NCBI GenBank assembly: GCA_903870685.1
Contig: CAIQDX010000011.1
Coordinates: 1-37,460 of the forward strand
Length of the DNA stretch: 37,460 nucleotides
From: an uncultured Chitinophagaceae bacterium
Lineage (GTDB): Bacteria; Bacteroidota; Bacteroidia; Chitinophagales; Chitinophagaceae
Reading direction: 5' to 3'
The position numbers were made by a program, and so were the translations under genes. Of this stretch, positions 469-18,330 are shown piece after piece. The first letter of the stretch is position 1, and the number at the start of each line of letters is the position of its first letter. The notes below the pieces were generated by a model that had not been told where the DNA came from, ran no database searches, and saw only the letters and a program-made list of their open reading frames with translations.

Positions 469-989
469 AAAAAAAATTGAAGAGCCAAGTTAGCAAAAAC
501 CCGCAAGAGAGTGAATGATTTAGCGGTTTATTGTAAGAGTGGCAGCTCATTACAACAAGTTTTATTCGAGACTGCTATTGGTCTGATTCTGCCATCCTTC
601 GTTGTTTAGTGGACTTGGGCAAAAGAAGTTGTGAAGAAGGCCTATAGATAGGAGTATTCTGGCTGTTTCATTCGAGCATCCTTCGTTTGAACAATTTCTA
701 TTGCCTGATTTTTTGTACTTATCGGAAATAATTGCGCAGAGGTTTTGAAACGTTGGCAGCTAACTGCTGTAAGTTCGTTCTTATACTGCTGTAAAGGTAA
801 AATTCTTTTATTGATAACCAAAGAGTTAGTGCGAATTTTTATTATACAACAACAAGTATGACAAAAGTCATATACTATTGATAACTCTTTTATTAAGTTT
901 ACCATAAGCTTTAGTTATATCCCCCACTAAGTAATGGCTTTGTTATCTCCGGCATTGTTTTTAAATAATACTTTTTCAATTATTAGTGT
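469..989. other. Intergenic region with no convincing gene
   Basis: This 521-base gap separates two divergent secreted-protein genes. An 87-codon minus-strand frame at 642-905 has no recognisable domain, no signal peptide and an odd composition (five cysteines), so I do not call it. Two short direct repeats are present: ATTCGAG at about 564 and 670, and CATCCTTCGTT at 593-603 and 677-687. They may be traces of an old duplication or decayed element. A weak -7-like box (TAACTTGG on the minus strand, 485-492) precedes the GH3 gene, and TACTTTTT at 969-976 precedes the subtilisin gene. Neither is a full consensus match. Confidence 0.5.
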
Positions 990-3900
990 ATGAAAAAAAT
1001 ATACTTCTTATTATTTATTGTTGTGAATGTAAGTATTGTTTATTGTCAAAATAAACAAATTGATGACCCTAAAAACAAATGGGTTCCTAATCAAATTATT
1101 GTAAAGTTCAAAGACAGTTATCAGTTGAATAACCGGTCAATGGAAGTTGGCAAAACGGCTACCAGCGTTGCATTTGATGCTTTTGCATCGGATAATAAAA
1201 TAAAAAAAATAGAACGTGTATTTCTTCAGGATGGTTTTTTTGTGCGTCGTGCAAAGATGCATGGTGTTGCAAAAAAGTTTGAAAACTTAACTACTGTAAC
1301 TATTGCAAAAGACAGTGTTAATATGACTGAAATGATCAAACAATTTCAGGCAATGCCCGAAGTAGAATATGCCGAACCTAATTATATATTTTCAACAGGC
1401 AATACCACTAAACCCAATCCTGTTCAATTGGTATCATTGATAGAAGAGAAACAAAACTTTCTGACCAATGTAAGAATTGATAATACAAAAATAAAATCTG
1501 CTTTTATTCCTCCTGCACCAACGGTTACACCATCCGATCCTTTATTTGGACAACAACTGAATTTGCAACTGATCAATGCTCAAAAAGCATGGGAAGTAAC
1601 AAAGGGCGACAGCTCTATTGTTGTTGCTGTTTTAGATACCGGTATTGATTGGCAACACCCCGATCTGGCACAAAATATATGGACTAACAAAAAAGAATTA
1701 AACGGTACAGCCGGTGCGGATGACGACAATAATGGTTATGTAGATGATATACGCGGTTGGGATTTTGTAAACAACGATAATAACCCAATGGATGATAACA
1801 GCCATGGTACCCATGTGGCTGGTATTATTGCTGCCAGAGGCGATAACGGAATTGGTATTACCGGCATTAACTGGTATGCAAAAATTATGTGTATTAAAGT
1901 AATGCAGAGCACAGGTAGAGGCGATGCTGCTACTATTGCAAAAGGAGTAGAATATGCTGCTGCCAATGGTGCCAATATTATTAACCTTAGCCTGGGTGGT
2001 TATTATGAAAGTTTAACCTTGAAAGCTGCATTAGAAAATGCTTATGCCAATTGTTTTATTGTAGCTGCGGCAGGTAATGACGGTACGGCTATTGGTCCGT
2101 GTATGGGTTGTGCTCCTTTATATCCTGGCGCATATTCTTTTGTAATGGGTGTGCAAGATCAAGCATCATATTCTAACTACGATCAGGACGGACCTTTTGT
2201 TTCAAAATATCCTAACTTATTAAATTATGATGTGTTTGCTCCTGGCTCAAGTGTAACCAGTACTATACCTAATGGAGCTTATGCTGCTTATACAGGAACA
2301 TCTATGTCAACACCTTTAGTAGCTGGTATTGCTTCTTTGTATATGACCAAATATCCAAAATATGATAAAGAGTTTTTGTTTGGTCATTTAGTAAATAATA
2401 GCTTAGGCGGTTTTATTGATGCTTATAAAGTTTTAACCGATCAGGGCAAACCTAATATAACAATTACAAAAACAGATATTGTTGATACTTGTTCAACATG
2501 CAATAATGATGGCTATCCTGATGCAGGTGAAAATGTAACACTTCGTTTTTATATAAAAAACACATGGGCACCAGCCGATAGTGTGTCCATTAAATTGAAT
2601 TATGAAGGATTAGCTGATACAAGTTTGGTTCAATTTATTAGAGACAGTTCTTATGTTGGAGCCATCTCTCCTAATGCATCAGCTTTTACACAGTTGCCAT
2701 TAATAGTACATATTTCAGATAAAGTATATCATGGTGCAGATTATAAAATTAAAGCCACTATAAAAGATAATATGGGAAATAGTTGGCAACAAATAGTAGT
2801 AATCACTTTTCATAATGCTATAACATTTGGAGGAATACTTACCAATGATGTTACTTTATACCCAAATAAATACTATTATGTAGTTGATAATTTATTAGTG
2901 CAAGATTGTAACATGATAATCAAGCCAGGTTCTACTTTAAACTTTAGCGATGGAAAAGCATTAAGAACGGTTGGTACTGGCACTATTCAAGCTTTGGGTA
3001 AAAGAGATTCCGTTATAACATTTACATCAAATACGCGATGGCAGGGTTTAAATTTGAATTATGGTCAATACCCTAATGGAATCGCATTCAAAGACTATGA
3101 CTATTTTATTGATACAGTTAAAAATACATCGAAATTTAAATATTGTGTTTTTGAGGCGATTGATAATTATTTGGGAGGAATACAAGGAGGATCTTTAATT
3201 ACTAGATCAGTATATCGAGGGTCTTATTCTCAACCATATGCAGGTTTCTTTTTCAGAAATAATGTCATAAATAATTTTGGTGTTAGTGGTGATATGAGAC
3301 TTGAGTCTTCAGATTATTGTAATTATATAGATAATGTATCAGGAATGTTTATGTGGGGGAATTTTGGAGATAAAAGGAATAATGTACTTAACAGTAGTGG
3401 AGGTATAGATTTAAGAGAGTTTGTCGGTACTGGGATATCTAATATTCCTAAATATATATATTTTGGAACCACCGATTCTGCTTTACTAGAAAACCATATT
3501 TATGACTTCTTTGATTATTCAAACTATAATGCAATAAATATTAAAGGGTTTAAAACTACACCATGCGATTCATGTCCAGGAATGGTTTGGAAACTTACAT
3601 TAGATGGGAAAGAAATGTCATCCAATACCATTAACCCAGAAGATATTTTAGAATTAGGTACACATGAAATAAAAGTATGGTTTAATACGCAGATGGATAC
3701 GGCATATACACCCACGATTTCATTTGGGCAAAGAGATCCATTTAATCAAAACTTTATAAAGAATAAGGGAGTTTGGAGTACAGATGGAAAAACTTATACT
3801 ATTAGTCGTGATTTTGTTTTAACAGACCCAAAAGGAATAGTAAACTTCGCTGTTTCTGGTGCTAAGGATACATTAGGTTTGGAGATTCCTTATGAACGTA

Positions 3901-5045
3901 CAAGATTTAGAGTAAACTTACAGTCTACTGGTTCCAAGTCTTTAGATTTTAGTTTGGTACCACAATGTGGCAAGCTTCAATTAAACTGGGAAAATTTGCG
4001 AACACCCGGTAGCGATATTATTGGTTATAATATTTACCGAAGAAACAAAACTTCAAATGGGGCATTTGGTTTATTAAATAATACATTGATTTTAGATAAT
4101 GCCTACAAAGATTATAAAGTTGGTTTAGACACAACATACGATTATGTGTACACTGCTGTAAGAGATGGTATGAATAATGAAACGGATTCTTCATTTATAT
4201 TAACAGGTAAACCATTGCCTTCTAAATTAGGAGATGCAGATGGTGATAGTGCAGTTAATGTAACAGATGTTGTTGCTGCGGTTAATTATATTCTGCAAAA
4301 AAATCCTAACGCATTTATTTTCAAACAGGCCGATATCAATAATGATAAAGTAATTAATGTGCTGGATATTATTGGCATTATTGATCGCATCTTAAATCCA
4401 CGTATTGGTGGTTATAACGGAACCTATGATTATAATCCTACCAGCAGTCCGGGTAAATTATTCCTCTATAATCAAAACGATACACTGTTTGCCAGAACGG
4501 TATTTAAGATCGGTGGAATAGAAAGTAGTACAAATAATACTGTTAGCAAATGGATTGGCGATTTAAGCAAATGGGAAACAGTAAAAACACCTGCCGGAAA
4601 AATCATGCAATATAGTTTTGGCGGCAGTTTAGAATTGCCTGATGCTTTACCGATTGCAATTATAAATAGTAAAGTAAATCCGTCTGAATGGATTATTTCA
4701 ACAGATGATGGCAGACCATTGGAAATTGTTTGGTTAGGTAAAATTGCAAACAATATTAAAAAGCAAAGTGAGAATGTGTATTTGTCAGATGCATCACCTA
4801 ACCCTGCAAAAGATGTACTCCATTATACAGCAGAAATAAAAACAGCAGTCAATAATTTCAGTTGTGTACTCACAGATATCAGTGGCAAAGAATTATGGAA
4901 AAAAGAATATGGAACAAAAGCAGCAGGCCTCAGCAATGAAACCATTAATGCTCATGGTTTCAATAAAGGCGTTTACATTCTTAAAATATATTGGAATGAA
5001 AACGGAACTGCTTATGAAAAAGTAAATAAAGTGGTTTTGCAATAA
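990..5045 (+). CDS. Secreted S8 (subtilisin-like) serine peptidase with dockerin-like module and T9SS C-terminal signal
   Basis: The protein has 1,351 residues. It starts with a Sec signal peptide (residues 1-19, ending VYCQ) and a fervidolysin-type prodomain at about 29-135 (WVPNQIIVKFK ... EVEYAEPNY). The S8 catalytic domain spans about 183-480, with Asp216 in VLDTGID, His272 in HGTHVAG and Ser438 in GTSMSTP, so the triad is complete. A CARDB-like beta domain (about 495-615) follows. Next come a beta-helix-like stretch with a PGSTLNF motif, a fibronectin III-like domain (about 991-1079) and a type I dockerin-like module (about 1081-1139). The module has two calcium loops, DADGDSAVNVTD and DINNDKVINVLD. 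The last 85 residues, from ASPNPAKDVL, are a T9SS type A sorting domain. It should be exported by Sec and then T9SS and be released or anchored at the cell surface. The ATG at 990 is immediately followed by the signal peptide. Substrate unknown. Confidence 0.93.
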   Translation: MKKIYFLLFIVVNVSIVYCQNKQIDDPKNKWVPNQIIVKFKDSYQLNNRSMEVGKTATSVAFDAFASDNKIKKIERVFLQDGFFVRRAKMHGVAKKFENLTTVTIAKDSVNMTEMIKQFQAMPEVEYAEPNYIFSTGNTTKPNPVQLVSLIEEKQNFLTNVRIDNTKIKSAFIPPAPTVTPSDPLFGQQLNLQLINAQKAWEVTKGDSSIVVAVLDTGIDWQHPDLAQNIWTNKKELNGTAGADDDNNGYVDDIRGWDFVNNDNNPMDDNSHGTHVAGIIAARGDNGIGITGINWYAKIMCIKVMQSTGRGDAATIAKGVEYAAANGANIINLSLGGYYESLTLKAALENAYANCFIVAAAGNDGTAIGPCMGCAPLYPGAYSFVMGVQDQASYSNYDQDGPFVSKYPNLLNYDVFAPGSSVTSTIPNGAYAAYTGTSMSTPLVAGIASLYMTKYPKYDKEFLFGHLVNNSLGGFIDAYKVLTDQGKPNITITKTDIVDTCSTCNNDGYPDAGENVTLRFYIKNTWAPADSVSIKLNYEGLADTSLVQFIRDSSYVGAISPNASAFTQLPLIVHISDKVYHGADYKIKATIKDNMGNSWQQIVVITFHNAITFGGILTNDVTLYPNKYYYVVDNLLVQDCNMIIKPGSTLNFSDGKALRTVGTGTIQALGKRDSVITFTSNTRWQGLNLNYGQYPNGIAFKDYDYFIDTVKNTSKFKYCVFEAIDNYLGGIQGGSLITRSVYRGSYSQPYAGFFFRNNVINNFGVSGDMRLESSDYCNYIDNVSGMFMWGNFGDKRNNVLNSSGGIDLREFVGTGISNIPKYIYFGTTDSALLENHIYDFFDYSNYNAINIKGFKTTPCDSCPGMVWKLTLDGKEMSSNTINPEDILELGTHEIKVWFNTQMDTAYTPTISFGQRDPFNQNFIKNKGVWSTDGKTYTISRDFVLTDPKGIVNFAVSGAKDTLGLEIPYERTRFRVNLQSTGSKSLDFSLVPQCGKLQLNWENLRTPGSDIIGYNIYRRNKTSNGAFGLLNNTLILDNAYKDYKVGLDTTYDYVYTAVRDGMNNETDSSFILTGKPLPSKLGDADGDSAVNVTDVVAAVNYILQKNPNAFIFKQADINNDKVINVLDIIGIIDRILNPRIGGYNGTYDYNPTSSPGKLFLYNQNDTLFARTVFKIGGIESSTNNTVSKWIGDLSKWETVKTPAGKIMQYSFGGSLELPDALPIAIINSKVNPSEWIISTDDGRPLEIVWLGKIANNIKKQSENVYLSDASPNPAKDVLHYTAEIKTAVNNFSCVLTDISGKELWKKEYGTKAAGLSNETINAHGFNKGVYILKIYWNENGTAYEKVNKVVLQ

Positions 5046-5293
5046 AGCAGCCTAACGGCTATGAGGCAAATGAATTTATTTTTTATTCTTTTTTGCTTGT
5101 CCAAAAAAGAAACAAAAAAGGACAACCGAAAACGATAACAGCCCGTTTTCGGTGGGGTTCCCTGATTAAGCTGTTGCACTTCTGTGACTTCAGCTATAGG
5201 GCAATGATGCGTAACTAAAAGGCATTGCATTTTTAATGACATGATTCACATTAAAAATGGTTTATCAAATATTAAAAAATTAAAGAGTCGTTC
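5046..5293. other. Intergenic spacer, possible dispersed repeat with hairpin
   Basis: The spacer holds a perfect 10-base inverted repeat (ACCGAAAACG at 5125-5134, CGTTTTCGGT at 5144-5153) that is not followed by a T tract, so it does not look like a standard terminator. A 76-codon minus-strand frame covers 5012-5242 and overlaps the end of the protease gene. Its A-rich and T-rich runs (5081-5120) and lack of any domain suggest non-coding, repeat-like DNA rather than a gene. No TAnnTTTG box is visible before the next gene. Confidence 0.4.
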
Positions 5294-8200
5294 ATGCATT
5301 GGAGAAAAAAGCTGATAACCATTTTTGTCTTGCTGCTATTTGTTTGTATAGAAGTAGAAGCTCAGCAGGTATTATCAATTGTAAACAAAACCATTGGTTA
5401 TAATTCCAATACTGAATTAGAAATTAATTTACAAAACAGTGCAAAGGTTTCGGCTGTTCAGTTTGATGTTACTGCAAGTTTGACCAATATTAATTTCCCT
5501 TCTGTAAAAGATAGTATTGTTACCACAGCACGTTTTGCAGACCACAGTATTTCTTATTCAAAGGTTTCGGCAACGCAAGTGCGGATTATTTTGTTCAGCA
5601 TGTCTAATGCTTATCTAAATGGAACATCCGGTAAATTGTTAGGTATCAAAATAAATTCAGGTTCTGTTCCGGGAGTCAATAATATCAGTTTATCAAATAT
5701 TACTTTGGCAGATTCAACAGGACAGTCGATAAGCTTCACACAACAGAACGGAACTATTACAGTAATAGCACCACAATTAAATGTTACAGATACAGTAAGA
5801 TTAGGTAACATACCTATGTTGAACAATACTAATAATTATCTGTATTTAAATAATAATGGAAATGATACACTAAAGATTACTGGAATAAGTTCTGATAATT
5901 CGGAATTGACATTCCCTAATTTGAATTTGCCAATTAAGCTGCAACAGTATCAAGGATATAATTTGAATAATAATATTTATCCTACTTCAAAAGGCAATAA
6001 ATTATATGCTATTAAAATTGTTTCAAACGATCCTGCAGGTGATAAGTATGTATATGTAAAAGATTCAACGTATGCAGTAAATAAAATTTATTTCTCAAAT
6101 GCAGTTATAGGTTCCTACAATACCGATACTGTAGTTTCTATTGCTGTAAAAAATCAGGAAAATTTTTCTGCATTTCAGTTTACGGTTCAATTGCCAAATG
6201 GAATTGATTATGTTGTTAATAGTATTGCATTAGACAGCAGCAGATTGGTGGATCATGTGGTTAGTGCCAATGTTGTCAATGGAAACTTAACTGTAATTGC
6301 TTATTCATCAGGGCTACAAAATTTTAAATTGAATGACGGTCAGATTCTAACATTTAAAATAAAGTTGAATAAACCGGGAGGTACTTACCCATTAACATTA
6401 TCCAATGCTGCAATAACAAATGCACAGGCACAAAATATTATATCTGATTTTGTTTCAAGTACTGTAACTATAAAATCAGCAACTATTTCTTTAAACAACA
6501 CACAACTATATTTTGGAAGAATTTCTACAAAAGAATATTCGCAAGCAGGATTAACAATAAACAATACGGGTACTCAGAATTTGATCATTTCAAAATTTGT
6601 TTATCCGTCAACAGCTTTGAATAGCAATGCTGCGCTCCCATTAACGATAACACCGGGAAATAATAAGAATGTCAATTTTAGTTTTCATTCGAATATGCCT
6701 GTTGATTTAAACAATACAAATATTACCATTCAATCCAATGACCCGTTGGGCGATAAATCGGTGATAGTAAATGCAGCAGCTTATTCAAAAGATGAAGTAT
6801 ACTTAAAATATCCTTATCTGCATCATGCAAATGCTATCAGAGTTCCTGTGATGCTTACAAATTATGATACATTGAATGGGGTTCAGTTTGATATACAAAT
6901 TAACAGCCCCTCAAAAATTTCTTTTAGCGACAGCATGTTTGTATTGAGCGACCGATTTAAAAAGTATTCTGCCTCTTATCAGAAATTAGATGCACAAAAT
7001 TTACGTGTGATATTATATTCTTTAGATGCTACACCTGTTATACCCGACAGTGTTTATATAGGGGAATTATTATTAAATATTGTTGCAACGCAGCCTGATG
7101 GTAATTATGGGTATGTAGATTTTGCGAATGTTGTTTTAGGAAGTACGGGAGGTGTTAATTTATTTTCAGGAAAGGTGGGACAAAATATAAATCTGTGTAA
7201 TGGCAGTGCTGCATTGACTGTTACAGGAACAGTTAATGTTTGTGATTCTTTGATTTTAAAAACAAATACAGGCACACCCGCATTATGGTATATGAATGAT
7301 ACTCTGTTGTCGAATATTCAAAGCAGTACTTATAATGTAAATGTGTCTGGCAATTGGAAAGCAATTATCAGTTATGGTTCCTGTAATTATGTATCCAATA
7401 CAGTACAAACAATAAAAGTTTCAGCACCAGCTGTTCCGACAATTAGTAATAATCGTCCGCTAATATTTTGCAATGGAGATAGTACAGTGCTTACATCATC
7501 AGCATCAAGTGGCAATCAATGGCTGTTGAATGGAACAAATATATCAGGAGCAACCAATCAAAATATCACTATAAAAGCAAGTGGCGTTTATACAGTTCAA
7601 ACAACAAACAATTCAGGATGTTCATCACTGTCATTGAAAGATACTGTTACAGTAAATGCATTGCCTGCTATTCCAACTATCAGCAATAATCGTCCGCTAA
7701 CATTTTGCAGTGGTGATAGCACAATACTTACATCATCAGCATCAAGTGGCAATCAATGGTTATTGAACGGAGCAAATATATCAGGATCAACCAATCAAAA
7801 TATCACAGTAAAAGCATCAGGCGTTTATTCAGTTCAAACAACAAACAATTCAGGATGTTCATCAACATCATTAAAAGATACTGTTACTGCAAATGCATTG
7901 CCTGCTTTTCCAACTATCAGCAATAATCGTCCGCTAATATTTTGCAGTGGTGATAGCACAATACTTACATCATCTGCATCAAGTGGCAATCAATGGCTGT
8001 TGAATGGAACAAATATATCCGGATCAACCAATCAAAATATTACTCTAAAAGCAAGTGGCGTTTATACAGTTCAAACAACAAACAATTCAGGATGTACAAG
8101 TCAAAGCAGTTTAAATATCACGATTAAAGTAAATCCTAATCCAATTGTCAATTTTATTACTTCATCAGTTTGTCTTGGTCAAACATCACAATTTACTGAT

Positions 8201-8866
8201 ACATCAACCATAACTGATAACACCTCAAATTCATTTAATTATCAATGGAACTTTGGCGATGGTATCAATTCGAGTATTAAAAACCCATCACATTTATATG
8301 CAGTTTCAGCCAATTATATTGTGAAACTTAAAGTTACTTCTTCAAATGGCTGTACTGATTCAATTAGTAAACAAGTAATAATAAATAGTCTTCCATCAAA
8401 ACCGATTATTACAATCAACGGCAATCAATTAACAACTTCTTCCGGTTTACAAACATATACCTGGCTGTTAGAAAATCAAGTTATCACTGGTGCAACAAGT
8501 AATACTTACAGTCCAACAAAAAGCGGTAACTATATTGTTATTGTGGTAAATGCTTTTGGCTGTTCTTCAACCAGCGGTGCGTTTAATTATGTTGTTACTG
8601 CCATAAATCCCATTAATGCGGGCAGCAATAAAATAATGATTGCCCCTAATCCAGCTTACGGTGGCGAAGCCTGGTTAATATTCGAACATCAACTGTTATC
8701 AAAAGTTACAGTAAATATATTTTCTGCAAATGGAATTTTATTAAACACATTTACTACCATAAATCAACGAACTAAATTGCCAATCGATCAGTTTAGCCAT
8801 GGAATTTATTTTGTAAGTATTATAACTAACTCCGGAAAAACAACTCTGTCATTAATGGTTAAATAG
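5294..8866 (+). CDS. Secreted multidomain protein with three cohesin-like domains, Ig-like repeats, PKD domain and T9SS signal
   Basis: The protein has 1,190 residues and a signal peptide (1-24, ending VEAQ). Three segments have a cohesin-like pattern of alternating strands: a VSAVQFDV-type strand, then a GKLLGIKI-type strand, then an ISLSNITLAD-type strand. They lie at about 25-157, 263-395 and 500-632. Two ASPM/Hydin-like beta domains with a SNDPxGDK motif separate them (about 160-260 and 398-497). After an Ig-like segment come three tandem 79-residue Ig-like repeats (from residue 715; the third is partial). A PKD domain (about 943-1030, WNFGDG at 985-990), another Ig-like unit and a T9SS type A sorting domain (1114-1190, starting IAPNP) complete it. 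No catalytic residues are visible, so it looks like an adhesin or scaffold displayed at the surface. Its position directly downstream of a dockerin-bearing protease suggests a partner relationship; that is inference. Confidence 0.85.
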   Translation: MHWRKKLITIFVLLLFVCIEVEAQQVLSIVNKTIGYNSNTELEINLQNSAKVSAVQFDVTASLTNINFPSVKDSIVTTARFADHSISYSKVSATQVRIILFSMSNAYLNGTSGKLLGIKINSGSVPGVNNISLSNITLADSTGQSISFTQQNGTITVIAPQLNVTDTVRLGNIPMLNNTNNYLYLNNNGNDTLKITGISSDNSELTFPNLNLPIKLQQYQGYNLNNNIYPTSKGNKLYAIKIVSNDPAGDKYVYVKDSTYAVNKIYFSNAVIGSYNTDTVVSIAVKNQENFSAFQFTVQLPNGIDYVVNSIALDSSRLVDHVVSANVVNGNLTVIAYSSGLQNFKLNDGQILTFKIKLNKPGGTYPLTLSNAAITNAQAQNIISDFVSSTVTIKSATISLNNTQLYFGRISTKEYSQAGLTINNTGTQNLIISKFVYPSTALNSNAALPLTITPGNNKNVNFSFHSNMPVDLNNTNITIQSNDPLGDKSVIVNAAAYSKDEVYLKYPYLHHANAIRVPVMLTNYDTLNGVQFDIQINSPSKISFSDSMFVLSDRFKKYSASYQKLDAQNLRVILYSLDATPVIPDSVYIGELLLNIVATQPDGNYGYVDFANVVLGSTGGVNLFSGKVGQNINLCNGSAALTVTGTVNVCDSLILKTNTGTPALWYMNDTLLSNIQSSTYNVNVSGNWKAIISYGSCNYVSNTVQTIKVSAPAVPTISNNRPLIFCNGDSTVLTSSASSGNQWLLNGTNISGATNQNITIKASGVYTVQTTNNSGCSSLSLKDTVTVNALPAIPTISNNRPLTFCSGDSTILTSSASSGNQWLLNGANISGSTNQNITVKASGVYSVQTTNNSGCSSTSLKDTVTANALPAFPTISNNRPLIFCSGDSTILTSSASSGNQWLLNGTNISGSTNQNITLKASGVYTVQTTNNSGCTSQSSLNITIKVNPNPIVNFITSSVCLGQTSQFTDTSTITDNTSNSFNYQWNFGDGINSSIKNPSHLYAVSANYIVKLKVTSSNGCTDSISKQVIINSLPSKPIITINGNQLTTSSGLQTYTWLLENQVITGATSNTYSPTKSGNYIVIVVNAFGCSSTSGAFNYVVTAINPINAGSNKIMIAPNPAYGGEAWLIFEHQLLSKVTVNIFSANGILLNTFTTINQRTKLPIDQFSHGIYFVSIITNSGKTTLSLMVK
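7436..8095 (+). repeat. Tandem 237-bp in-frame repeat, 2.8 copies
   Basis: Units begin at 7436, 7673 and 7910, a constant spacing of 237 bases (79 codons). The third copy is recognisable to about 8095 and then diverges into the PKD-domain linker. Each unit encodes an Ig-like module (PTISNNRPL ... GNQWLLNG ... SGVYTVQTTNNSGC). The copies are nearly identical in DNA as well as protein, which points to recent duplication or ongoing gene conversion. Confidence 0.93.
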
Positions 8867-8967
8867 TTTTCTCTTTGTGATATTCAAGGGAAAGCATCTA
8901 GGGTTTAGTGGAATCTAAATTTTATTTCCTTCTTATCATTCACTAAGCTTTTATCTTTATCATCAAT

Positions 8968-10155
8968 ATGAATGTTTATACAACTAAATCAACCGTAATT
9001 ATAACTTGTCACAAACGTATTGTTCCTTATCTCGAGCAGGAAGTAAAAGCACTTGGTTTTGAATTAGAAGAAAGTTTTGTAACAGGTGTAAGATTGTTTG
9101 CTTCAGTTAATGATTGCATCAAACTCAATCTCAATCTGCGTTGTGCCAGTCAGGTGTTATATAGTTTAAAATCTTTTGATGCACATAATGCCGATGATAT
9201 TTATCGAAATTTGGTTGGTTATACTTGGGAAAATATTTTACCCGATCCCGGATATTTTTCTGTAACCAGCAATGTAAATAATGAAACCATCAACAACAGT
9301 ATGTTTGCCAATCTTCGTGTGAAAGATGCGATTGTTGACAGACTTCGTGAAAAAAGAGGAACTCGTCCATCAACAGGTTCAGAACTTACAGGTGCAGTTA
9401 TTCATTTATTCTGGAAGAATGAATCAGCAGAAATATTTATTGATACTTCAGGTGATTCATTGGCACGACATGGTTATAGAAAAATTCCCGGATTGGCACC
9501 TATGTTAGAAGCATTGGCTGCTGCCACTATTTATGCAACACGATGGGATAGAGTTTCACCATTTATAAATCCAATGTGTGGTTCCGGTACTGTTGCCATT
9601 GAAGCAGCATTGATCGCTACTAACAAACGACCCGGATTATTTAGAACTAATTATGCATTCATGCATGTAAAAGGATATGATGAATCTGTTTATTTAAAAG
9701 AAAAAGAATTATTGCAGAAACAAATTATTAAAGTGCCGGATCTTAGAATCATTGCAACCGATTACAGCGATAAAGCTATTGAGAATGCAAAGAAAAATGC
9801 AGATGCAGCAGGCATTGCAACTATGATTGAATTTAAAGTTTGCGATTTTACATTAACTGAAATTCCACAAGATGCAAACGGTATCATGTTTGTAAATCCT
9901 GAATACGGCGAACGTTTGGGTGATGTTGCAGCATTAGAAATTACTTATGCAAAAATTGGTGATTTCATGAAACAGAAATGTGGCGGTTATTTTGGTTATG
10001 TATTTACCGGCAACTTAGATCTTGCAAAAAAAATTGGCTTGAAAGCAAAACGCAGAATAGAATTTTATACCAGCACTATTGATTGCCGTTTATTAGAATA
10101 CGAATTATATAAAGGAAGCAGGGCTGTGCCAAAAGAAATAAAAGATGTTGTATAA
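8968..10155 (+). CDS. THUMP-domain class I SAM-dependent RNA methyltransferase (RlmL/YpsC type)
   Basis: The protein has 395 residues. The N-terminal third is a ferredoxin-like plus THUMP RNA-binding region, and the SAM-binding Rossmann domain follows. The motif NPMCGSGTVAIEAA marks the cofactor site, TDYSDKAIENAKKN is the motif for the acidic ribose-binding residue, and NPEYGERLG occupies the motif IV position. Family members methylate N2 of guanosine in 23S rRNA (m2G2445 for E. coli RlmL). The usual motif IV is NPPY; here the second proline is replaced by glutamate. The gene ends at a good terminator and is convergent with the DUF5606 gene. The ATG at 8968 has no visible Shine-Dalgarno, as usual for this phylum. 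A -7-like TATCTTTA lies at 8952-8959. The exact target nucleotide cannot be read from sequence. Confidence 0.9.
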   Translation: MNVYTTKSTVIITCHKRIVPYLEQEVKALGFELEESFVTGVRLFASVNDCIKLNLNLRCASQVLYSLKSFDAHNADDIYRNLVGYTWENILPDPGYFSVTSNVNNETINNSMFANLRVKDAIVDRLREKRGTRPSTGSELTGAVIHLFWKNESAEIFIDTSGDSLARHGYRKIPGLAPMLEALAAATIYATRWDRVSPFINPMCGSGTVAIEAALIATNKRPGLFRTNYAFMHVKGYDESVYLKEKELLQKQIIKVPDLRIIATDYSDKAIENAKKNADAAGIATMIEFKVCDFTLTEIPQDANGIMFVNPEYGERLGDVAALEITYAKIGDFMKQKCGGYFGYVFTGNLDLAKKIGLKAKRRIEFYTSTIDCRLLEYELYKGSRAVPKEIKDVV

Positions 10156-10162
10156 ATAAAAT

Positions 10163-10195
10163 AAAAATGCCACCTGTTTTGCAAGTGGCATTTTT
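10163..10195. terminator. Bidirectional intrinsic terminator
   Basis: An 11-base perfect inverted repeat (AAAAATGCCAC at 10163-10173, GTGGCATTTTT at 10185-10195) flanks an 11-base loop. It has A and T tails on both sides, between the stops of the convergent methyltransferase and DUF5606 genes. Confidence 0.85.
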
Positions 10196-10211
10196 AATTA
10201 TAAAAACTTAA

Positions 10212-10634
10212 TTAAGCTTTCTCTTCAATTGTTCCTTCTTCTTCTTCAGTTTCGGTTAATTTAAATTCAACTTTATGTTCTTTTAAAATACCAAACCATT
10301 TCACCATCTTCTTCATATCGCTGGCATACACTCTTTCGAAATCCATATCGGCATACACTTTTTTGAAATAAGCTGTTACTGCTTTTGGATCTTTTTCTGA
10401 TGGTAATTTTTCAGTGCTTTTATCCATTGCCTGAAAAATTTCTACCAAGTTTACGTTTTCACGGATGGTAAATATTTCAATGCTTTCCAAATGCGAAAAG
10501 TTATGAATACGACTGCTTACAAACTTTGTGGTTTTATCTTCCAAAGAACGAACAATGGCACCATCGGTTTTGCTTCCCACCACTTCAAATAAACCGGTCA
10601 TGCCTGAGATTGATATTAATTTACTGTATTCCAT
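10212..10634 (-). CDS. DUF5606 family protein
   Basis: This 140-residue soluble protein has no signal peptide or membrane segment. The N-terminal half (MEYSKLISISGMTGLFEV ... DGAIVRSLEDKTTKFVSSR) is the characteristic start of the Bacteroidota-specific DUF5606 family. A helical region follows, and the last 13 or so residues are a highly acidic tail (TETEEEEGTIEEKA). The family's function is not known to me. Upstream on the minus strand is a -7-like TTACTTTG (10655-10662) about 20 bases before the ATG, so it probably has its own promoter. It is convergent with the methyltransferase gene. Confidence 0.88.
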   Translation of the reverse strand: MEYSKLISISGMTGLFEVVGSKTDGAIVRSLEDKTTKFVSSRIHNFSHLESIEIFTIRENVNLVEIFQAMDKSTEKLPSEKDPKAVTAYFKKVYADMDFERVYASDMKKMVKWFGILKEHKVEFKLTETEEEEGTIEEKA

Positions 10635-10707
10635 AAAATATTTTTTAGAGGCTGCAAAGTAAAGGTAAATTGATTAAGATGAGAAAAGTGCTTTTATAGT
10701 ATCAATA

Positions 10708-11355
10708 TCAAGCAATCTCTTTTAACAAATTTTCAATTCTTTGTTTCAATGTTTCATAATCAGTAAAACCTCTTGCGAGTAAATGAAATTTAGTTTCTGA
10801 GGTTTGCATTAAAACACATGGAAAACCCGTTACCTGCAATTGTTTGCACAACTGAAATTCGTAATGTGCTTTCTCTTTGTATTCTTCACTTTTTAATTTA
10901 CTATAAAATGCTTCTGGTTGAATGCTGTATTTTTCTAATAGATGACGATAAGCTTCATCATCGCACAAATCTCTTCCTTCATAATTCAAAGCATATTGTA
11001 GATCGCTGGCAAATTCTACTTGTCGGTGCGGATAATAATCTTTGAACACACATAATGCAATAGCAGCTTTTTCTGAATCCAAATACCAATCACTCAAATC
11101 AGGATTAAAAATATGCCATAGAAAATCTTTGCCAAACTCAATGCCGGTAAGCTCTTCAACGGTTGTGTACGCTTTTTGAATATACGGTGCCATCAAACCA
11201 ATAGGTTGTTTCTTTTCATTAATTATCATACCACCGGATAAAACTTCGGTTTCAAATTGTGATTGATATTCGGCAGCGATTTTTTTAATTACCGGACTAA
11301 ATCCATAGCACCATCCGCAATAAGCATCATAACAATAAAATAAAACTGGTCTCAT
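10708..11355 (-). CDS. DsbA-family thioredoxin-fold protein
   Basis: The protein has 215 residues. It starts straight into a thioredoxin-fold beta strand (MRPVLFYCYD) followed by the redox motif C13-G-W-C16 in AYCGWCYGFSP. A cis-proline region near the C terminus (QVTGFPCVLMQ) completes the DsbA-like fold. There is no signal peptide, so it acts in the cytoplasm, like the 2-hydroxychromene-2-carboxylate isomerase/FrnE-type branch rather than periplasmic DsbA. The likely role is thiol-disulphide exchange or a glutathione-like redox step; the substrate is unknown. It shares the 11356-11475 intergenic region with the divergent aminotransferase gene. Confidence 0.85.
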   Translation of the reverse strand: MRPVLFYCYDAYCGWCYGFSPVIKKIAAEYQSQFETEVLSGGMIINEKKQPIGLMAPYIQKAYTTVEELTGIEFGKDFLWHIFNPDLSDWYLDSEKAAIALCVFKDYYPHRQVEFASDLQYALNYEGRDLCDDEAYRHLLEKYSIQPEAFYSKLKSEEYKEKAHYEFQLCKQLQVTGFPCVLMQTSETKFHLLARGFTDYETLKQRIENLLKEIA

Positions 11356-11425
11356 GCTGCAAAGAAAAGCAGATTATTTTAACAGTTCATCCATCAACAA
11401 AAATTTACAACAAATGTTATTTCTC

Positions 11426-11433
11426 TACTTTTG
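11426..11433 (+). promoter_or_regulatory. -7 box (TACTTTTG) of the DegT-family gene
   Basis: This is an exact TAnnTTTG match followed by CAAC. It sits 42 bases before the ATG at 11476. A transcript starting a few bases downstream would begin at about 11440, which leaves almost no leader for the TTG at 11446 and so favours the ATG. No good -33 TTTG was found. Confidence 0.6.
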
Positions 11434-11475
11434 CAACGTTAAACTTTGAACCTTAAACCTTTTAAACTTTTAAAT

Positions 11476-12693
11476 ATGCCCGGTTTTGAATTTTTTGGTG
11501 ATGAAGAAAGAAGAGAAGTAAACGATGTTTTACAAACAGGAATTTTAATGCGTTACGGATTTGATGGTCCGCGTAAAGGCATTTGGAAATCTGTTGAATT
11601 GGAAAAAGAAATTTGTAAAACATTCGGGAGTAAATATGCGCAACTTACATCGAGCGGAACATCAGCATTAACAACTGCGATGGCTGCATTAGGTATTGGT
11701 GCAGGCGATGAAATTATTATGCCTGCATTTACATTCGTTGCAAGTTTCGAAGCGGTGTTAAGTGTAGGCGCTATTCCGGTTCTGGTTGAAGTGGATGAAA
11801 CATTAACATTAAATCCGCAGGCAGTGTTGAATGCCATCACCAGAAAAACAAAATGTGTGATGCCGGTGCATATGTGCGGCAGCATGGCAGATTTGGATGC
11901 ATTAAAAAATATATGTGATGAACACAATTTAATTTTATTGGAAGATGCTTGCCAGAGTATTGGTGCAACATACAAAGGAAAACATGTTGGAACCATTGGT
12001 GCTGCAGGAACATTTAGTTTTGACTATGTAAAAACAATTACCTGTGCCGAAGGTGGTGTGGTGATGACTAACAGTGAAGACGTTTATATTAAGTGCGATG
12101 GTTACACCGATCATGGTCACGATCATAAAGGTGTTGATCGTGGTGCAGACTTGCATCCATTCATTGGATATAATTTTAGGATCAGCGAATTGCATGCTGC
12201 TGTTGGTTTAGCGCAGATAAGAAAGTTGGATAAATTTTTAGCGATTCAAAAAAAGAATCACACTTATTTAAAAAATGTTTTGGCAGAAATACCTGAAGTT
12301 TCTTTCAGACAAATACCTGATCCTTCCGGTGATAGTTGCACATTTTTATGTTGGTTTTTACCAACAGCAGAAATTACAAAAGCATTTGTTGATGAAATGA
12401 AAGCGCAAGGAATTTTAGCAGGTAATTTTCATTACATCGACAATAACTGGCATTACATTCGTAACTGGCATCATTTAAAAAATGGCGGATCGTTATATCC
12501 TTTATCGGATGCTCAGAAAGAGGCATTAGCAAAACTAAAATCACAAGCGTTTCCTGTGAGTGATGATTTGATGAGCCGTTGCATTTGCACTGCCATTAAT
12601 CTGTCATGGACTGATGAACAATTAAAAGAGAAAGGAGAGAAGATGATTGCTGCAATTAAAAAAGCATTACAACAATCAAGTGTTGCTGTATAA
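11476..12693 (+). CDS. DegT/DnrJ/EryC1/StrS family PLP-dependent aminotransferase
   Basis: From the ATG at 11476 the protein has 405 residues. It shows the fold-type I sequence landmarks of sugar aminotransferases: TSSGTSALTTAMAALGIGAGDEII near the N terminus, the phosphate and pyridine-binding EDACQSIGATYKG, and the Schiff-base lysine (about K186) in FDYVKTITCAEGG. GYNFRISELHAAVGLAQ follows. The family transfers an amino group, usually from glutamate, to a keto-sugar nucleotide for surface polysaccharides. No other sugar-nucleotide gene lies nearby, so the substrate is open. The frame stays open to a TTG at 11446, but the promoter box and the ATG argue for the shorter form. The 3' end overlaps no gene, and its terminator lies at 12699-12728. 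Confidence 0.9.
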   Translation: MPGFEFFGDEERREVNDVLQTGILMRYGFDGPRKGIWKSVELEKEICKTFGSKYAQLTSSGTSALTTAMAALGIGAGDEIIMPAFTFVASFEAVLSVGAIPVLVEVDETLTLNPQAVLNAITRKTKCVMPVHMCGSMADLDALKNICDEHNLILLEDACQSIGATYKGKHVGTIGAAGTFSFDYVKTITCAEGGVVMTNSEDVYIKCDGYTDHGHDHKGVDRGADLHPFIGYNFRISELHAAVGLAQIRKLDKFLAIQKKNHTYLKNVLAEIPEVSFRQIPDPSGDSCTFLCWFLPTAEITKAFVDEMKAQGILAGNFHYIDNNWHYIRNWHHLKNGGSLYPLSDAQKEALAKLKSQAFPVSDDLMSRCICTAINLSWTDEQLKEKGEKMIAAIKKALQQSSVAV

Positions 12694-12698
12694 GAAAT

Positions 12699-12728
12699 TA
12701 AAGCCGTAATTTTTATTACGGCTTTTTT
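12699..12728. terminator. Terminator whose arm overlaps the end of the convergent gene
   Basis: AAAGCCGTAAT (12700-12710) and ATTACGGCTTT (12715-12725) form an 11-bp stem with a TTTT loop, followed by a T tract on the plus strand. The right arm contains the stop codon (12716-12718) and last codons of the convergent minus-strand gene. Confidence 0.85.
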
Positions 12729-13000
12729 ATTGCATTTGGTTTTTGTTCGAGATAATCTGTGTAATCGATAGAACCCAATCTAAACTTTAAAGAAATTTTT
12801 GTTGCTTTTTCGAATTGTATTTCTTTCTTGCAAAAAAAACCAAGCGTGCTGTTGTAATAATTGTCAGGCAAGGGTTTCAGCGGATATAACTTTAAACTGT
12901 CAACAACATGTTTTGCAACCATAGGTTGTTGAGACAGCTGTGCTTTGCTGATTACAGAAAGTATTAGCAATAAATTTACAAACAAACAAATTCTTTTCAC
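12716..13000 (-). CDS. Small secreted protein of unknown function
   Basis: From a GTG at 13000 this gives 94 residues: a signal peptide (MKRICLFVNLLLILSVISKAQ-like, about 20 residues, basic then hydrophobic, with a cleavage site near SKAQ) and a short mature domain containing LKPLPDNYYNSTLGFFCKK. The frame stays open to 13096, but the extra N-terminal residues would bury the signal peptide and run into a dispersed repeat, so I prefer the GTG. A -7-like TAAATTTA lies at 13025-13032. No domain recognised. It resembles the many small periplasmic proteins found in this phylum and is divergent from rpoN. Confidence 0.6.
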   Translation of the reverse strand: MKRICLFVNLLLILSVISKAQLSQQPMVAKHVVDSLKLYPLKPLPDNYYNSTLGFFCKKEIQFEKATKISLKFRLGSIDYTDYLEQKPNAIKKP

Positions 13001-13065
13001 AGCAATGTTGTTTTCTTTTGTGTGTAAATTTACATTGTTTAAGAAATGTTGAGTAAGAATAAAAA

Positions 13066-13100
13066 GTACAAGTGTGCGACGCAACCGCAGATGCACAAAG
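13066..13100 (-). repeat. Dispersed GTTGCGTCGCAC element, copy 1
   Basis: On the minus strand the core reads GTTGCGTCGCACACTT (13070-13085), preceded by GCATCTGCG and followed by GTAC. It lies in the divergent region between the small secreted protein and rpoN. Confidence 0.75.
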
Positions 13101-13147
13101 TACGGGAGTTGGTAAAAAAATAATTTTAATAATTCGGCATAAATAAA

Positions 13148-14632
13148 ATGGCATTAGGTCAATCGTTACAGCAGAGGTTATTACAAAAATTATCGCCACA
13201 ACAAATTCAGTTGATGAAATTGTTGCAGGTGCCTACTGCTAATTTGGAAGAAAGAATTAAAGAAGAACTGGAAGAAAATCCCGCATTGGAAATGGATGAA
13301 GAAGGAAAAAATGATGATGCTGATGAAATGAAAGATGAATTTGAAACCGCCGAAGAAGAATATGACCTGGATGGAAGTGAAGATGAGTATGAAGATCTGG
13401 ACCTTAGCGAATATGTTGCTGATGATGACGGAGAGATAGCCGATTATAAAATGAAGGATGAGAATTATCCTGAAATGGATGATAAAAAAGTTATTCCAAT
13501 AAAAAATGAGAGCAGTTTTTTTGATGTGGTGATAGGTCAATTAAGTTTATTGGAATTAGATGAAAGGCAGTTTAAAATAGCCGAACAGATTGTTGGAAGT
13601 TTAGATGATGATGGTTATTTACGCAGAGAATTAAGCAGTGTTGTAGATGATCTTGCTTTTCGTCAAAATGTGATGACTGATGAAAAAGAAGTTGAAAGAA
13701 TTATTAAACAAATTCAGCAATTCGATCCTCCCGGTGTTGGTGCAAGAAATTTACAGGAATGTTTGTTATTGCAGTTAGAAAGAAAAATAAATGAAGAAAA
13801 AAGTGTTGAACTTGCTATAAAGGTTTTAAGTAAATATTTTGATGAGTTTACAAAGAAACATTACGAAAAAATTCAGCGTGGATTAAATTTAACTGATGAA
13901 GAAATTAAAGCTGTCATCAATCAAATCATCAAATTAAATCCTCGTCCCGGTGGTAATGTTGGCGAGATGAATAAAGCCGAAAGTTATATTGTTCCCGATT
14001 TTTATATTTTAAATAATGGTGGTGTTTTAGAACTCTCATTGAATTCTCGCAATGCACCGGACTTACGTGTGAGTGAGGGTTACAGAGATATGATGAAAGA
14101 ATATGAGCTAGGTGCAAAAAAAGATAAGCGACAAAAAGAGGCTGTGATTTTCATCAAACAAAAAATAGATTCTGCAAAATGGTTCATTGAAATGATCCAA
14201 CAACGGCAACATACTTTGTTGATAACGATGGATACCATCATGAAACATCAGAAAGAGTTTTTTTTAACAGGTGATGAAACAGAAATGCGACCGATGATAT
14301 TAAAAGATATTGCTGAAAAAACGAATTTGGATATTTCGACTGTCAGTCGTGTTGCCAATAGCAAATTTGTGCAAACAGAATTTGGAACATTTCGATTAAA
14401 ATTTTTCTTCAGCGAAAGTTTAAGTACCGACAGCGGCGAAGAAGTAAGTACCCGTGAAGTGAAAAAAATATTAAGCAACATGATTGAAGCAGAAGAAAAA
14501 CGCAAACCTTTAAGCGATGAAGAATTAACCGATATGCTGAATGAGAAAGGTTATAATATTGCCCGCCGAACTGTTGCCAAATACAGAGAGATGTTGAATA
14601 TTCCGGTAGCAAGATTGAGAAAAGAACTTTAA
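13148..14632 (+). CDS. rpoN: RNA polymerase sigma-54 factor
   Basis: The protein has 494 residues with the full sigma-54 layout. Region I (residues 1-50) is glutamine and leucine rich (LGQSLQQRLLQKLSPQQIQLMKLLQ), where activators bind. A very acidic region II spans about 48-115. The core-binding domain contains FDPPGVGARNLQECLLLQL, and the DNA-binding helix-turn-helix contains DIAEKTNLDISTVSRVANSK. The RpoN box ARRTVAKYRE (472-481) reads the -24 element. It directs transcription from -24/-12 promoters together with AAA+ activators; no activator gene is in the window. The next gene starts 15 bases downstream and is probably co-transcribed. The ATG at 13148 coincides with the conserved N terminus. 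Confidence 0.97.
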   Translation: MALGQSLQQRLLQKLSPQQIQLMKLLQVPTANLEERIKEELEENPALEMDEEGKNDDADEMKDEFETAEEEYDLDGSEDEYEDLDLSEYVADDDGEIADYKMKDENYPEMDDKKVIPIKNESSFFDVVIGQLSLLELDERQFKIAEQIVGSLDDDGYLRRELSSVVDDLAFRQNVMTDEKEVERIIKQIQQFDPPGVGARNLQECLLLQLERKINEEKSVELAIKVLSKYFDEFTKKHYEKIQRGLNLTDEEIKAVINQIIKLNPRPGGNVGEMNKAESYIVPDFYILNNGGVLELSLNSRNAPDLRVSEGYRDMMKEYELGAKKDKRQKEAVIFIKQKIDSAKWFIEMIQQRQHTLLITMDTIMKHQKEFFLTGDETEMRPMILKDIAEKTNLDISTVSRVANSKFVQTEFGTFRLKFFFSESLSTDSGEEVSTREVKKILSNMIEAEEKRKPLSDEELTDMLNEKGYNIARRTVAKYREMLNIPVARLRKEL

Positions 14633-14647
14633 TCTAAGGGAATAAAA

Positions 14648-15298
14648 ATGCAAGAAACAGAAATTTATAAACCATCTATTTTGCTTCGAGTACCTGCGAA
14701 AATAATTTCGTACGTTTTTCATCCTTTATTTATACCAACCTATATTTTTATTTTTTTGTTGTATCAATTTCCTTACGAATTTTCAGGTATTACTTTGTGG
14801 CATTTAAAAATGCGTTTGTTTGGTTTATTTTGGTTTACTGCATTTTTTCCGGCCTTCTCTGTTTTTTTGTTGTGGCGTTTAAAATTCAGCGACAGCATTT
14901 TTTTGCGCACACAAAAAGAACGTGTTATTCCTTTTTTAATCAGCATGTTTTTTTATTGGTGGATGTATTATTTAAGTCGCAATTTTACCGATCAACCTGT
15001 TGTACTTAAGTTTTTCTATTTCGGCATTTTTATTTCAACATCGTTTGGTGTTATCATCAATAATTATATAAAAATAAGTCTGCACGCAATGGCCATTGGT
15101 GCTGCATTAGCGGCTATGATTCTTTTTGCATTCTTTTATCATACACAAATAACCACAGCCATCAGTATCACATTATTATTAACGGGAATTGTTTGCAGCA
15201 GTCGATTAATTGTAAGCGATCACACTAATGCCGAAATTTATATTGGATTATTTGTTGGAATTATTTGCCAGATGATTGGCTATTGGTTTGCGATGTAA
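14648..15298 (+). CDS. Polytopic inner-membrane protein, PAP2-phosphatase-like
   Basis: This 216-residue protein has about six hydrophobic helices. Three weak but correctly ordered motifs recall the PAP2 lipid phosphatase family: RTQKERVIPF (in place of KxxxxxxRP), SLHAMAIG (in place of PSGH) and SSRLIVSDHTNAEIYIG (SRxxxxxHxxxDxxxG-like). If active it would dephosphorylate a prenyl or lipid phosphate on the periplasmic side. The second motif has SLHA rather than SGH, so activity is uncertain. It lies 15 bases after rpoN and is probably in the same transcript. An unrelated membrane protein of unknown role remains possible. Confidence 0.6.
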   Translation: MQETEIYKPSILLRVPAKIISYVFHPLFIPTYIFIFLLYQFPYEFSGITLWHLKMRLFGLFWFTAFFPAFSVFLLWRLKFSDSIFLRTQKERVIPFLISMFFYWWMYYLSRNFTDQPVVLKFFYFGIFISTSFGVIINNYIKISLHAMAIGAALAAMILFAFFYHTQITTAISITLLLTGIVCSSRLIVSDHTNAEIYIGLFVGIICQMIGYWFAM

Positions 15299-15299
15299 T

Positions 15300-15355
15300 T
15301 TTTTTGTAGTCAGCTTTTGTATTTTAATGAAACACCGGTTGCGTCGCACTCTTCA
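15300..15355 (+). repeat. Dispersed GTTGCGTCGCAC element, copy 2
   Basis: The core GTTGCGTCGCACTCTT lies at 15338-15353. The left block TTTTTTGTAGTCAGCTTTTG starts right after the stop codon of the membrane-protein gene. It matches the left block of the copy upstream of leuS. Confidence 0.8.
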
Positions 15356-15390
15356 AAATTCGGAATTTTCTTCATCAGATTCAACAAATA

Positions 15391-15427
15391 AAAAACGTCA
15401 GGCTATAATTTTCAGCCTGACGTTTTT
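15391..15427. terminator. Bidirectional intrinsic terminator
   Basis: A 14-base perfect inverted repeat (AAAAACGTCAGGCT and AGCCTGACGTTTTT) around a 9-base loop lies between the convergent membrane-protein gene and korA-like gene. It is the strongest terminator in the window. Confidence 0.92.
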
Positions 15428-15447
15428 AAATATTTGAAAGAAATTTA

Positions 15448-17295: not shown

Positions 17296-17314
17296 GACTA
17301 TTATTTATAGTTTG

Positions 17315-17322
17315 CAAAGGTA
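17315..17322 (-). promoter_or_regulatory. -7 box (TACCTTTG) of the korA-like gene
   Basis: On the minus strand TACCTTTG followed by CAAAC is an exact TAnnTTTG match 20 bases before the ATG at 17295. Confidence 0.65.
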
Positions 17323-17438
17323 AGCGGATGAGGCATTTGTTGAACGCAGAATTTGATTTTTATCGAAATAAATTCGTTAAATCATTTCGTCGCATATCTT
17401 GCAGCTTCTTTTTTAATAATTGTTTTTGAATTGATGAT

Positions 17439-18272: not shown

Positions 18273-18286
18273 TTTTAACGGTTTTA
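18256..18286 (+). terminator. Probable intrinsic terminator, overlapping the end of the deacetylase gene
   Basis: TAAAACCG (18256-18263) pairs with CGGTTTTA (18279-18286) across a 15-base loop. The stem is short and the left arm lies in the last codons. Confidence 0.5.
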
Positions 18287-18330
18287 TTTATAGAACTTTT
18301 TTATTTTTACTCAGATAAAAAACAAAAATT

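Follow-up and report, generated by a model that had tools for sequence, protein, structure and literature searches.

The window analyzed here is an entire contig of 37,460 nucleotides (CAIQDX010000011.1) from the 3.18-Mb genome of an uncultured Chitinophagaceae bacterium (GCA_903870685.1). Close to its left end, two adjacent genes on the forward strand, separated by 248 bases as originally noted, encode a subtilisin-like protease that bears a dockerin (gene 1) and a scaffold-like protein with three cohesin domains (gene 2), both of which end in a sorting domain of the type IX secretion system (T9SS) (Table 1). The same pair of genes recurs in other genomes, and this recurrence provides strong indirect support for a functional partnership of the two products, as judged from sequence comparison.

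Domain architecture of the two proteins

The product of gene 1 starts with what looks by eye like a signal sequence; a subtilase prodomain and the S8 catalytic domain come next, and beyond a long middle region lie a dockerin, a module designated X and a T9SS tail. Membership of the S8 subtilases is indicated by the PF00082 score and by the presence of the catalytic Asp, His, Asn and Ser, three of which (D216, H272 and S438) form the triad that the original prediction had called intact. All four residues are conserved in the 15 other complete S8 homologs that were aligned (L143 included), and only the Asn and Ser are visible in the cut protein of L119. Six long homologs share 30–35% identity with gene 1 across most of its length, and the alignment with a protease of genome G647 (34% identity over 1420 columns) points to nearly full-length homology. 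A single-protein search with residues 481–1262 across the genome collection found no relative. The T9SS tails of both proteins score above the cut-offs of TIGR04183 and PF18962, in accordance with the two intact sorting domains proposed at the outset.

The two-loop module that had been described as dockerin-like scores above the curated cut-off of PF00404, and both of its loops are complete. Dockerins coordinate calcium through ligands at loop positions 1, 3, 5, 9 and 12; as read from alignment A3, Asp or Asn occupies these positions twice, and D10, D21, D43, D47 and D54 of the dockerin segment are invariant in its 23 rows. In a structural model of the dockerin and X, the dockerin part was superimposed on the dockerin 6kgd_B with a modest Z of 7.0 (rmsd 1.7, 54 residues aligned).

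The product of gene 2 contains three domains of 130 residues spaced by Ig-like domains, which are followed by Ig_7 repeats, a PKD domain and the T9SS tail, and its residues 3–648 share 29.5% identity with the scaffold of G642. These three domains had been called cohesins from the strand pattern only, and the call is now backed by a fold search and by profiles of homologs, with domain 1 placed by structure and the other two by homology. Domain 1 was modeled with AlphaFold2 from a three-row alignment confined to the window domains (pLDDT 76.2, pTM 0.73), and the cohesin beta-sandwich fold is found in this model. All 50 matches listed by Foldseek are cohesin-containing entries (best E = 1.6e-8; 83 matches at E ≤ 0.001), as are all 50 listed by VIA-align, in which 6kgc_A was superimposed with a Z of 17.9 and an rmsd of 1.7 over 132 aligned residues; among the rows listed, type I cohesins rank above type II. 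Most of the matched entries name a cohesin in their titles, and 3kcp, 4fl4 and 2o4e are structures that we take to hold cohesins.

A profile of 34 cohesin domains (A4) matches all three domains of gene 2, and R58 (in the numbering of the domain 2 row) is invariant in all of its rows. PF00963 recognizes 20 of the 34 domains (three being those of the window) at E ≤ 0.01, with a best E of 7e-8, and a single member matches one other family. The PF00963 cut-off is passed by 10 of the 13 gene 2 homologs scanned, the exceptions being L125, L131 and L164. A home-made cohesin profile derived from mixed hits in the class was dropped; some of its rows were taken from the wrong strand, and in a search of two proteins it matched the three domains weakly (0.04, 7.5e-4 and 2.1e-3). 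An Ig-like spacer similar to that between cohesins 2 and 3 also separates cohesins 1 and 2. NF012200 matches the window protein with 21.8 bits, below its cut-off of 45, and is above this cut-off in all 10 homologs scanned. The Ig_7 tandem repeats perhaps reflect recent variation in the length of the stalk.

Table 1. Coordinates of the gene pair and its domains in the window
Feature	Position	Strand	Evidence
Gene 1, S8 subtilase with dockerin, X module and T9SS tail (1351 aa)	990..5045	+	Pfam/NCBIfam matches; homologs
Peptidase_S8 catalytic domain (aa 208–471)	1611..2402	+	PF00082 170.6 bits; D216, H272, N363, S438
Type I dockerin (aa 1080–1134)	4227..4391	+	PF00404 27.0 bits (cut-off 22.9); both calcium-loop ligand sets present
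X module, shortened cohesin-like domain right behind the dockerin (about aa 1155–1251)	4452..4742	+	Profile comparison
T9SS type A sorting domain, gene 1 (aa 1269–1347)	4794..5030	+	TIGR04183 30.7 bits (cut-off 23); PF18962 28.5 bits (cut-off 27)
Intergenic gap (248 bases)	5046..5293	.	Inverted repeats; terminator-like stems predicted on minus strand only
Gene 2, triple-cohesin scaffold-like protein (1190 aa)	5294..8866	+	A4 profile; homologs
Cohesin domain 1	5366..5773	+	Fold match; A4 E 2.5e-35 (itself a profile member)
Cohesin domain 2	6074..6478	+	PF00963 19.8 bits, E 0.00165, below cut-off; A4 E 8.1e-38 (itself a profile member)
Ig-like spacer between cohesins 2 and 3 (HYDIN/DUF1573/choice-of-anchor D type)	6479..6757	+	PF22544 33.1 bits; DUF1573 31.8 bits
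Cohesin domain 3	6788..7198	+	A4 E 5.6e-31 (itself a profile member)
Ig_7 domains (three 237-nt tandem repeats)	7427..8137	+	Repeats 2 and 3 are 88% and 79% identical to the first
PKD_4 domain	8132..8368	+	57.6 bits
T9SS type A sorting domain, gene 2	8639..8863	+	TIGR04183 34.0 bits (cut-off 23); PF18962 28.0 bits (cut-off 27)

Recurrence of the gene pair

A scan of 84,980 species genomes with a two-row dockerin-X alignment, to which the locus of an uncultured Barnesiella sp. (L133, in genome G466) had contributed, yielded 45 named loci, 22 of which show a dockerin followed by X, as judged from the printed sequences and alignment A3. A cohesin frame lies directly downstream on the same strand in 18 of these 22 loci, with three cohesin domains in 17 (the third is cut in L143) and two before the contig end in L121. 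Two other loci (L119 and L139) have further dockerin proteases first and then cohesins, and the last two (L132 and L136) are 3-kb contigs from the same genome, each breaking off within another S8 gene; a different contig of that genome carries three S8-dockerin-X genes and then a triple-cohesin gene. A cohesin gene thereby follows in 20 of the 22 dockerin-X loci (19 of 21 without the query member L133), and no locus contradicts this order. The carriers include Bacteroidales, Lutibacter and Ca. Neomarinimicrobiota. The distance between the two genes, measured from the stop to the first plausible start, ranges from a 4-base overlap of stop and start (L123, L129, L138 and L141) through gaps of 2 to 20 bases (L120, L121, L122, L124, L126, L131, L133 and L143) and of about 80 bases (L134 and L135) to gaps of 160 to 275 bases (L125, L128, L130 and L142). 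At positions 11068–14977 of L142, the triple-cohesin frame overlaps, out of register, another frame that encodes a fourth cohesin and a T9SS tail; the two may be separate genes or the result of a frameshift or an assembly error.

In G466, the three cohesin domains lie in a single frame of 872 codons, and the only PF00404 dockerin of this genome at E ≤ 0.001, which was found independently, is encoded by the gene immediately upstream, 19 bases ahead of the triple-cohesin gene; its product comprises an Omp28-like domain (below the cut-off of that family), the dockerin, X and a tail-like end. Among 395 genomes of the class, a full match to the two-row dockerin-X alignment was obtained only in the genome of the window and in G466; two further matches were partial, that in G439 covering the dockerin and that in G444 covering X, with one internal stop.

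The proteins that bear the dockerin are mostly S8 proteases. A Pfam scan of 21 of the 22 dockerin-X proteins (L143 was left out) found S8 in 15 (partial in L119) and another architecture in two, the remaining four being cut at a contig or locus edge (L121, L132, L136 and L139); the complete genes behind L119 and L139 (L167 and L166) have S8 by a custom-built profile. Exactly one PF00404 match at E ≤ 0.001 is present in 12 of the 21 dockerin-X carrier genomes, and the others have 2 to 25, apart from G641 with none; PF00404 thus undercounts, because G641 scores none although its dockerin-X was found. Exactly three A4 cohesins occur in 10 of the 12 single-dockerin genomes, two (on a cut contig) in one and four in one. 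Three consecutive S8-dockerin-X genes precede the triple-cohesin gene in G630, G642 and G647; in G647, a two-cohesin gene lies in between and the contig begins just ahead of the first protease.

A further variant is found in G640 (three copies), G644 and G645, where the triple-cohesin scaffold has a second dockerin at its end and a gene with a single cohesin comes next. The second dockerins score 37.7 to 46.2 bits with PF00404 in the four scanned and share 25–44% identity with the two first dockerins compared (19–28% for that of L120), and the single cohesins share 19–29% identity with the scaffold cohesins compared. For the single-cohesin genes after L130, L134 and L135 and for L169, Pfam and NCBIfam searches gave no cohesin match and no T9SS-tail match; with the A4 profile, the cohesin of these genes is detected in the copies of G640 and G644 (E = 1.4e-8 to 1.9e-11). 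The scaffold's second dockerin in L120 and a cohesin-like stretch in the gene that follows it were recognized by eye only, with no match to PF00404 and PF00963, respectively, and that following gene bears a T9SS tail above the cut-off (43.4 bits). Scaffolds that end in a second dockerin gave no T9SS-tail match where scanned (L130, L134, L135 and L169), and among those without a second dockerin the tail is above the cut-off in the window, L129, L138, L141 and L164 and below it in L131. The exchange of tail for dockerin is a trend rather than a rule, because several scaffolds that lack a second dockerin (L122, L123, L125, L128, L133 and L167) have no T9SS-tail match either.

Gene trees of the protease and of the cohesin protein from 16 loci agree at the branches that are starred in both, and the window and L125 form long branches whose placement is unsure. 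The trees indicate largely joint inheritance of the two genes, which is distinct from binding of their products.

It could be argued that the dockerin is a mere calcium-binding stabilizer or linker, that the cohesin-like domains are generic surface beta-sandwiches and that their proximity is meaningless. Both modules are indeed widespread: PF00963 matches at E ≤ 0.002 occur in 69 of the 395 class genomes, and 41 of the 68 other than that of the window contain a dockerin too. Moreover, 18 of the 23 loci without X show no A4 cohesin within the flanks examined, the others having cohesins in the dockerin's own frame (four) or in an adjacent frame (L148); same-chain fusions of dockerin and cohesin are represented by L127, L137, L140 and L145. 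However, the dockerin-X subtype is specifically paired with this cohesin subtype in distantly related bacteria, some of the loci have the 4-base translational overlap, and one dockerin coexists with three cohesins in 10 of the 21 carrier genomes. A meaningless proximity is therefore considered highly improbable.

Probable docking of the protease and competing explanations

It is likely that genes 1 and 2 encode a dedicated and conserved cohesin-dockerin pair, by which the protease would dock on the scaffold. Both proteins would be exported via the T9SS, as their tails suggest, and outside the cell the calcium-loaded dockerin of the S8 protease would plug into the cohesins of the gene 2 product. 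Up to three proteases could thus be clustered on a single Ig-spaced surface scaffold, with extracellular protein as the putative substrate. A separate, cellulosome-like anchoring step may be provided in some relatives by the scaffold's second dockerin together with the one-cohesin gene. Dedicated docking is favored by the pairing of the genes, by the presence of just one dockerin in roughly half of the carriers and by the arrays of three proteases before three cohesins. Since both window proteins bear sorting tails, clustering is a likelier gain here than attachment. The original prediction had envisaged the display of a protease on a neighboring scaffold as an unusual system; the partnership of the genes is borne out by the recurrent pair, and the notion of a one-off gives way to that of a conserved two-gene module. 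The chances appear even that a "one plug, three sockets" machine, a minimal proteolytic counterpart of the cellulosome made up of a T9SS-exported S8 protease and its scaffold, is a conserved operon in Bacteroidota and Ca. Neomarinimicrobiota, with some lineages matching three tandem proteases to three cohesins and others having evolved a second dockerin-cohesin pair, orthogonal to the first, by which the scaffold is anchored.

The X module offers the dockerin another possible partner. X is probably a worn cohesin: the comparison of the dockerin-X profile A3 with the cohesin profile A4 by hhalign aligns them through X (96.2%, E = 2.2e-9), the X profile, run against a small set of frames, matches cohesin 3 of L168 (E = 1.5e-7), and in Kordia (L137) a full cohesin occupies the position of X. 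The match of the X fold to cohesins is weak (Z of 5–6.7). The derivation of X from a cohesin is supported by profiles and not by the fold, because the model of the dockerin and X reached modest scores (pLDDT 64.1, pTM 0.55) and Foldseek returned no match for it at E ≤ 0.001. Docking in cis or in chains is conceivable because X is cohesin-derived. The dockerin might clamp onto the adjacent X in the same chain, ahead of the sorting tail, and the gene 2 product would then be an adhesin inherited alongside, with other binding partners for its cohesins. The kinship of X with cohesins, the full cohesin of L137 and the frames of other Bacteroidia in which a dockerin is followed by a PF00963 cohesin (G250, G289, G302 and G617) are in line with such a clamp. 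Nevertheless, it leaves the cohesin gene in 20 of the 22 loci and the three-protease arrays unexplained, and X, compared with the scaffold cohesins, is reduced in length, has diverged further and matches weakly in fold; we regard the clamp as unlikely. Alternatively, the dockerin of one protease might bind the X of the next, forming head-to-tail chains that the scaffold cohesins nucleate or cap. Dockerin and cohesin-derived X do occur within one polypeptide, and Coh-Doc-Coh fusions are known from L127 and L137, but part of the cohesin domain is missing from X in the alignment and the idea itself is drawn from sequence, so that chains seem very unlikely.

Several observations weigh against docking of the protease on the scaffold. 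The dockerin bearer is not an S8 protease in L133, with its Omp28-like protein, or in L120 (Lutibacter), where a 3454-residue cadherin/NHL/FG-GAP repeat protein (positions 491–10855) bears the dockerin and X. The pair is also rare: of the 395 class genomes, only 2, that of the window and G466, were matched by profile A1, which was built from the three window domains. The window cohesins stay below the PF00963 cut-off of 24.1 (domain 2 being the best), a search of the whole gene 2 protein with PF00963 gave no match at E ≤ 1, and the A4 profile finds cohesins only weakly among Protein Data Bank (PDB) sequences (best E = 0.027). Each of the two proteins has its own T9SS tail, so that surface attachment needs no docking, and the dockerin might be occupied in cis, X being cohesin-derived. 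Neighboring genes can be co-inherited without binding of their products, and the two gene trees differ at weaker branches, that is, in the order inside L122/L124/L126 and in L130, which groups with L143 in the protease tree (100/100) and with L134/L135 in the cohesin tree (86/82). In addition, the 248-base gap of the window exceeds that of most relatives, and co-transcription is only putative.

Known systems and genomic setting

Cohesin-dockerin systems are usually regarded as clostridial and cellulolytic. A search limited to open-licence PubMed Central (PMC) papers found no description of this gene pair; a survey of noncellulosomal modules, reportedly by Peer et al. in 2009, could mention members of it. 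The clostridial cellulosome shares with the pair, in the available parts of the sources, the dockerin family, the cohesin fold, an enzyme-borne dockerin and a multi-cohesin scaffold, and C. thermocellum is reported there to have an S8 protease with a double dockerin, while cellulosomal clostridia also have dockerin-bearing S8 proteases and peptidase-bearing scaffoldins (PMC12484212, PMC6780208, PMC11557425). A further likeness is that the scaffolds of some relatives bear their own dockerin and are followed by a one-cohesin gene. Unlike the clostridial cellulosome, the pair shows no cellulase, carbohydrate-binding module (CBM) or dockerin-bearing glycosidase; its enzyme is a protease, T9SS tails are present and 12 of the 21 carrier genomes have one dockerin only. 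The best PDB sequence match to the cohesin profile, at the weak E of 0.027, is the cohesin module of Clostridium perfringens NagJ (2jh2), which, by contrast, belongs to a glycosidase.

Proteolytic cohesin-dockerin complexes have been proposed in other phyla. A cellulosome-like complex of Ca. Stygibacter (Cloacimonadota) has dockerins on an S8/S53 peptidase, among others, and a scaffoldin-like cohesin protein with a surface-attachment C-terminal domain (CTD); compared by description, it differs in its single 3,755-aa scaffoldin with CBMs and several enzyme classes, and no dedicated adjacent protease gene is described in the available part of the paper (PMC8542988). The planctosome of freshwater Planctomycetes is a proposed cohesin-dockerin complex for polypeptide degradation, which, as far as the available text goes, differs in its M12B and M14 peptidases, lamin-tail anchoring and other architecture (PMC6461901). 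The present pair is thus a variant of such complexes and not the first of its kind, because they have been proposed for Planctomycetes and Cloacimonadota. The mucinolysome of Limousia is likewise a non-cellulosic cohesin-dockerin complex with some dockerin-bearing peptidases but is Gram-positive and CAZyme-based, with many clients, according to the accessible part of its description (PMC12997984). In a paper on rumen Bacteroidetes, the available text states that no cohesins or dockerins were identified, in line with other Bacteroidetes genomes (PMC5831590). The mucinolysome paper, published in 2026, mentions 78 Bacteroidetes metagenome-assembled genomes (MAGs) that contain both kinds of module; it describes the presence of such systems in this group as surprising and as calling for investigation, and the pair bears on this published open question, namely the reason for cohesins and dockerins in Bacteroidetes (PMC12997984, in part). 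It offers a concrete, testable system of two adjacent genes, with one client and one three-site scaffold, small enough for reconstitution. If docking occurs as proposed, T9SS surface display would be combined with modular docking for protein breakdown, and a new plug-socket pair would become available for engineering.

The distribution of both modules in the genome of the window is sparse. Gene 1 carries its one PF00404 dockerin above the cut-off; a second match, L002 (16.9 bits), was rejected, as it lies inside a SusC-like protein according to its translation. The A4 profile finds three cohesins, all in gene 2, and domain 2 is the only PF00963 match at E ≤ 1 genome-wide. The sole dockerin above the cut-off sits on a protease and not, as would define a cellulosome, on a plant-polysaccharide enzyme. 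In 243 other genomes of the family (four of them congeners), a single-sequence search with the cohesin region of gene 2 gave no match at E ≤ 1e-5, and residues 481–1262 of gene 1 matched, at E ≤ 1e-4, only short FN3-like stretches in two. Within the five genus genomes, a dockerin at E ≤ 0.001 and a match to the cohesin part of gene 2 are found only in the genome of the window. Because the relatives match neither gene, both came or stayed together. Recent transfer was considered because the pair is missing from relatives; GC content is even along the window and gives no compositional sign of such a transfer.

Dockerins and cohesins are more numerous elsewhere. Eight genomes of family f51 (Bacteroidia; about 2 Mb; G400, G430, G506, G528, G568, G588, G607 and G623) have 14–20 dockerin and 5–10 cohesin matches each (at least, in several), and this expanded repertoire possibly represents a multi-enzyme cohesin-dockerin system. 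Dockerin matches reach 27 in the genome of Ca. Colivivens caballi (L127/G652), which encodes the Coh-Doc-Coh protein, and 25 in L132/G642. A dockerin adjoins a PF00963 cohesin in the same frame in G250:C40, G289:C5, G302:C1 and G617:C55, with the dockerin first, and in G419:C1, with the cohesin first; judged by its sequence, this arrangement is a recurrent cis module in Bacteroidia.

Around the pair, two inverted repeats were seen by eye at 5097–5153 in the intergenic gap, which may be an inserted element or a terminator, and a 25-base part of them has no further copy within the window. The gene after the pair, from 8968, encodes an rRNA methyltransferase of the RlmL type, and most of the ten frames that were scanned over 8968–21205 belong to metabolism or housekeeping (among them sigma-54, oxidoreductases and an aminotransferase) or have no function assigned. 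Copies of a repeat of the GTTGCGTCGCAC type, 68–96% alike and in both orientations, lie at or near gene boundaries at 13063, 15338, 23985, 27781, 36084 and 36215 of the window.

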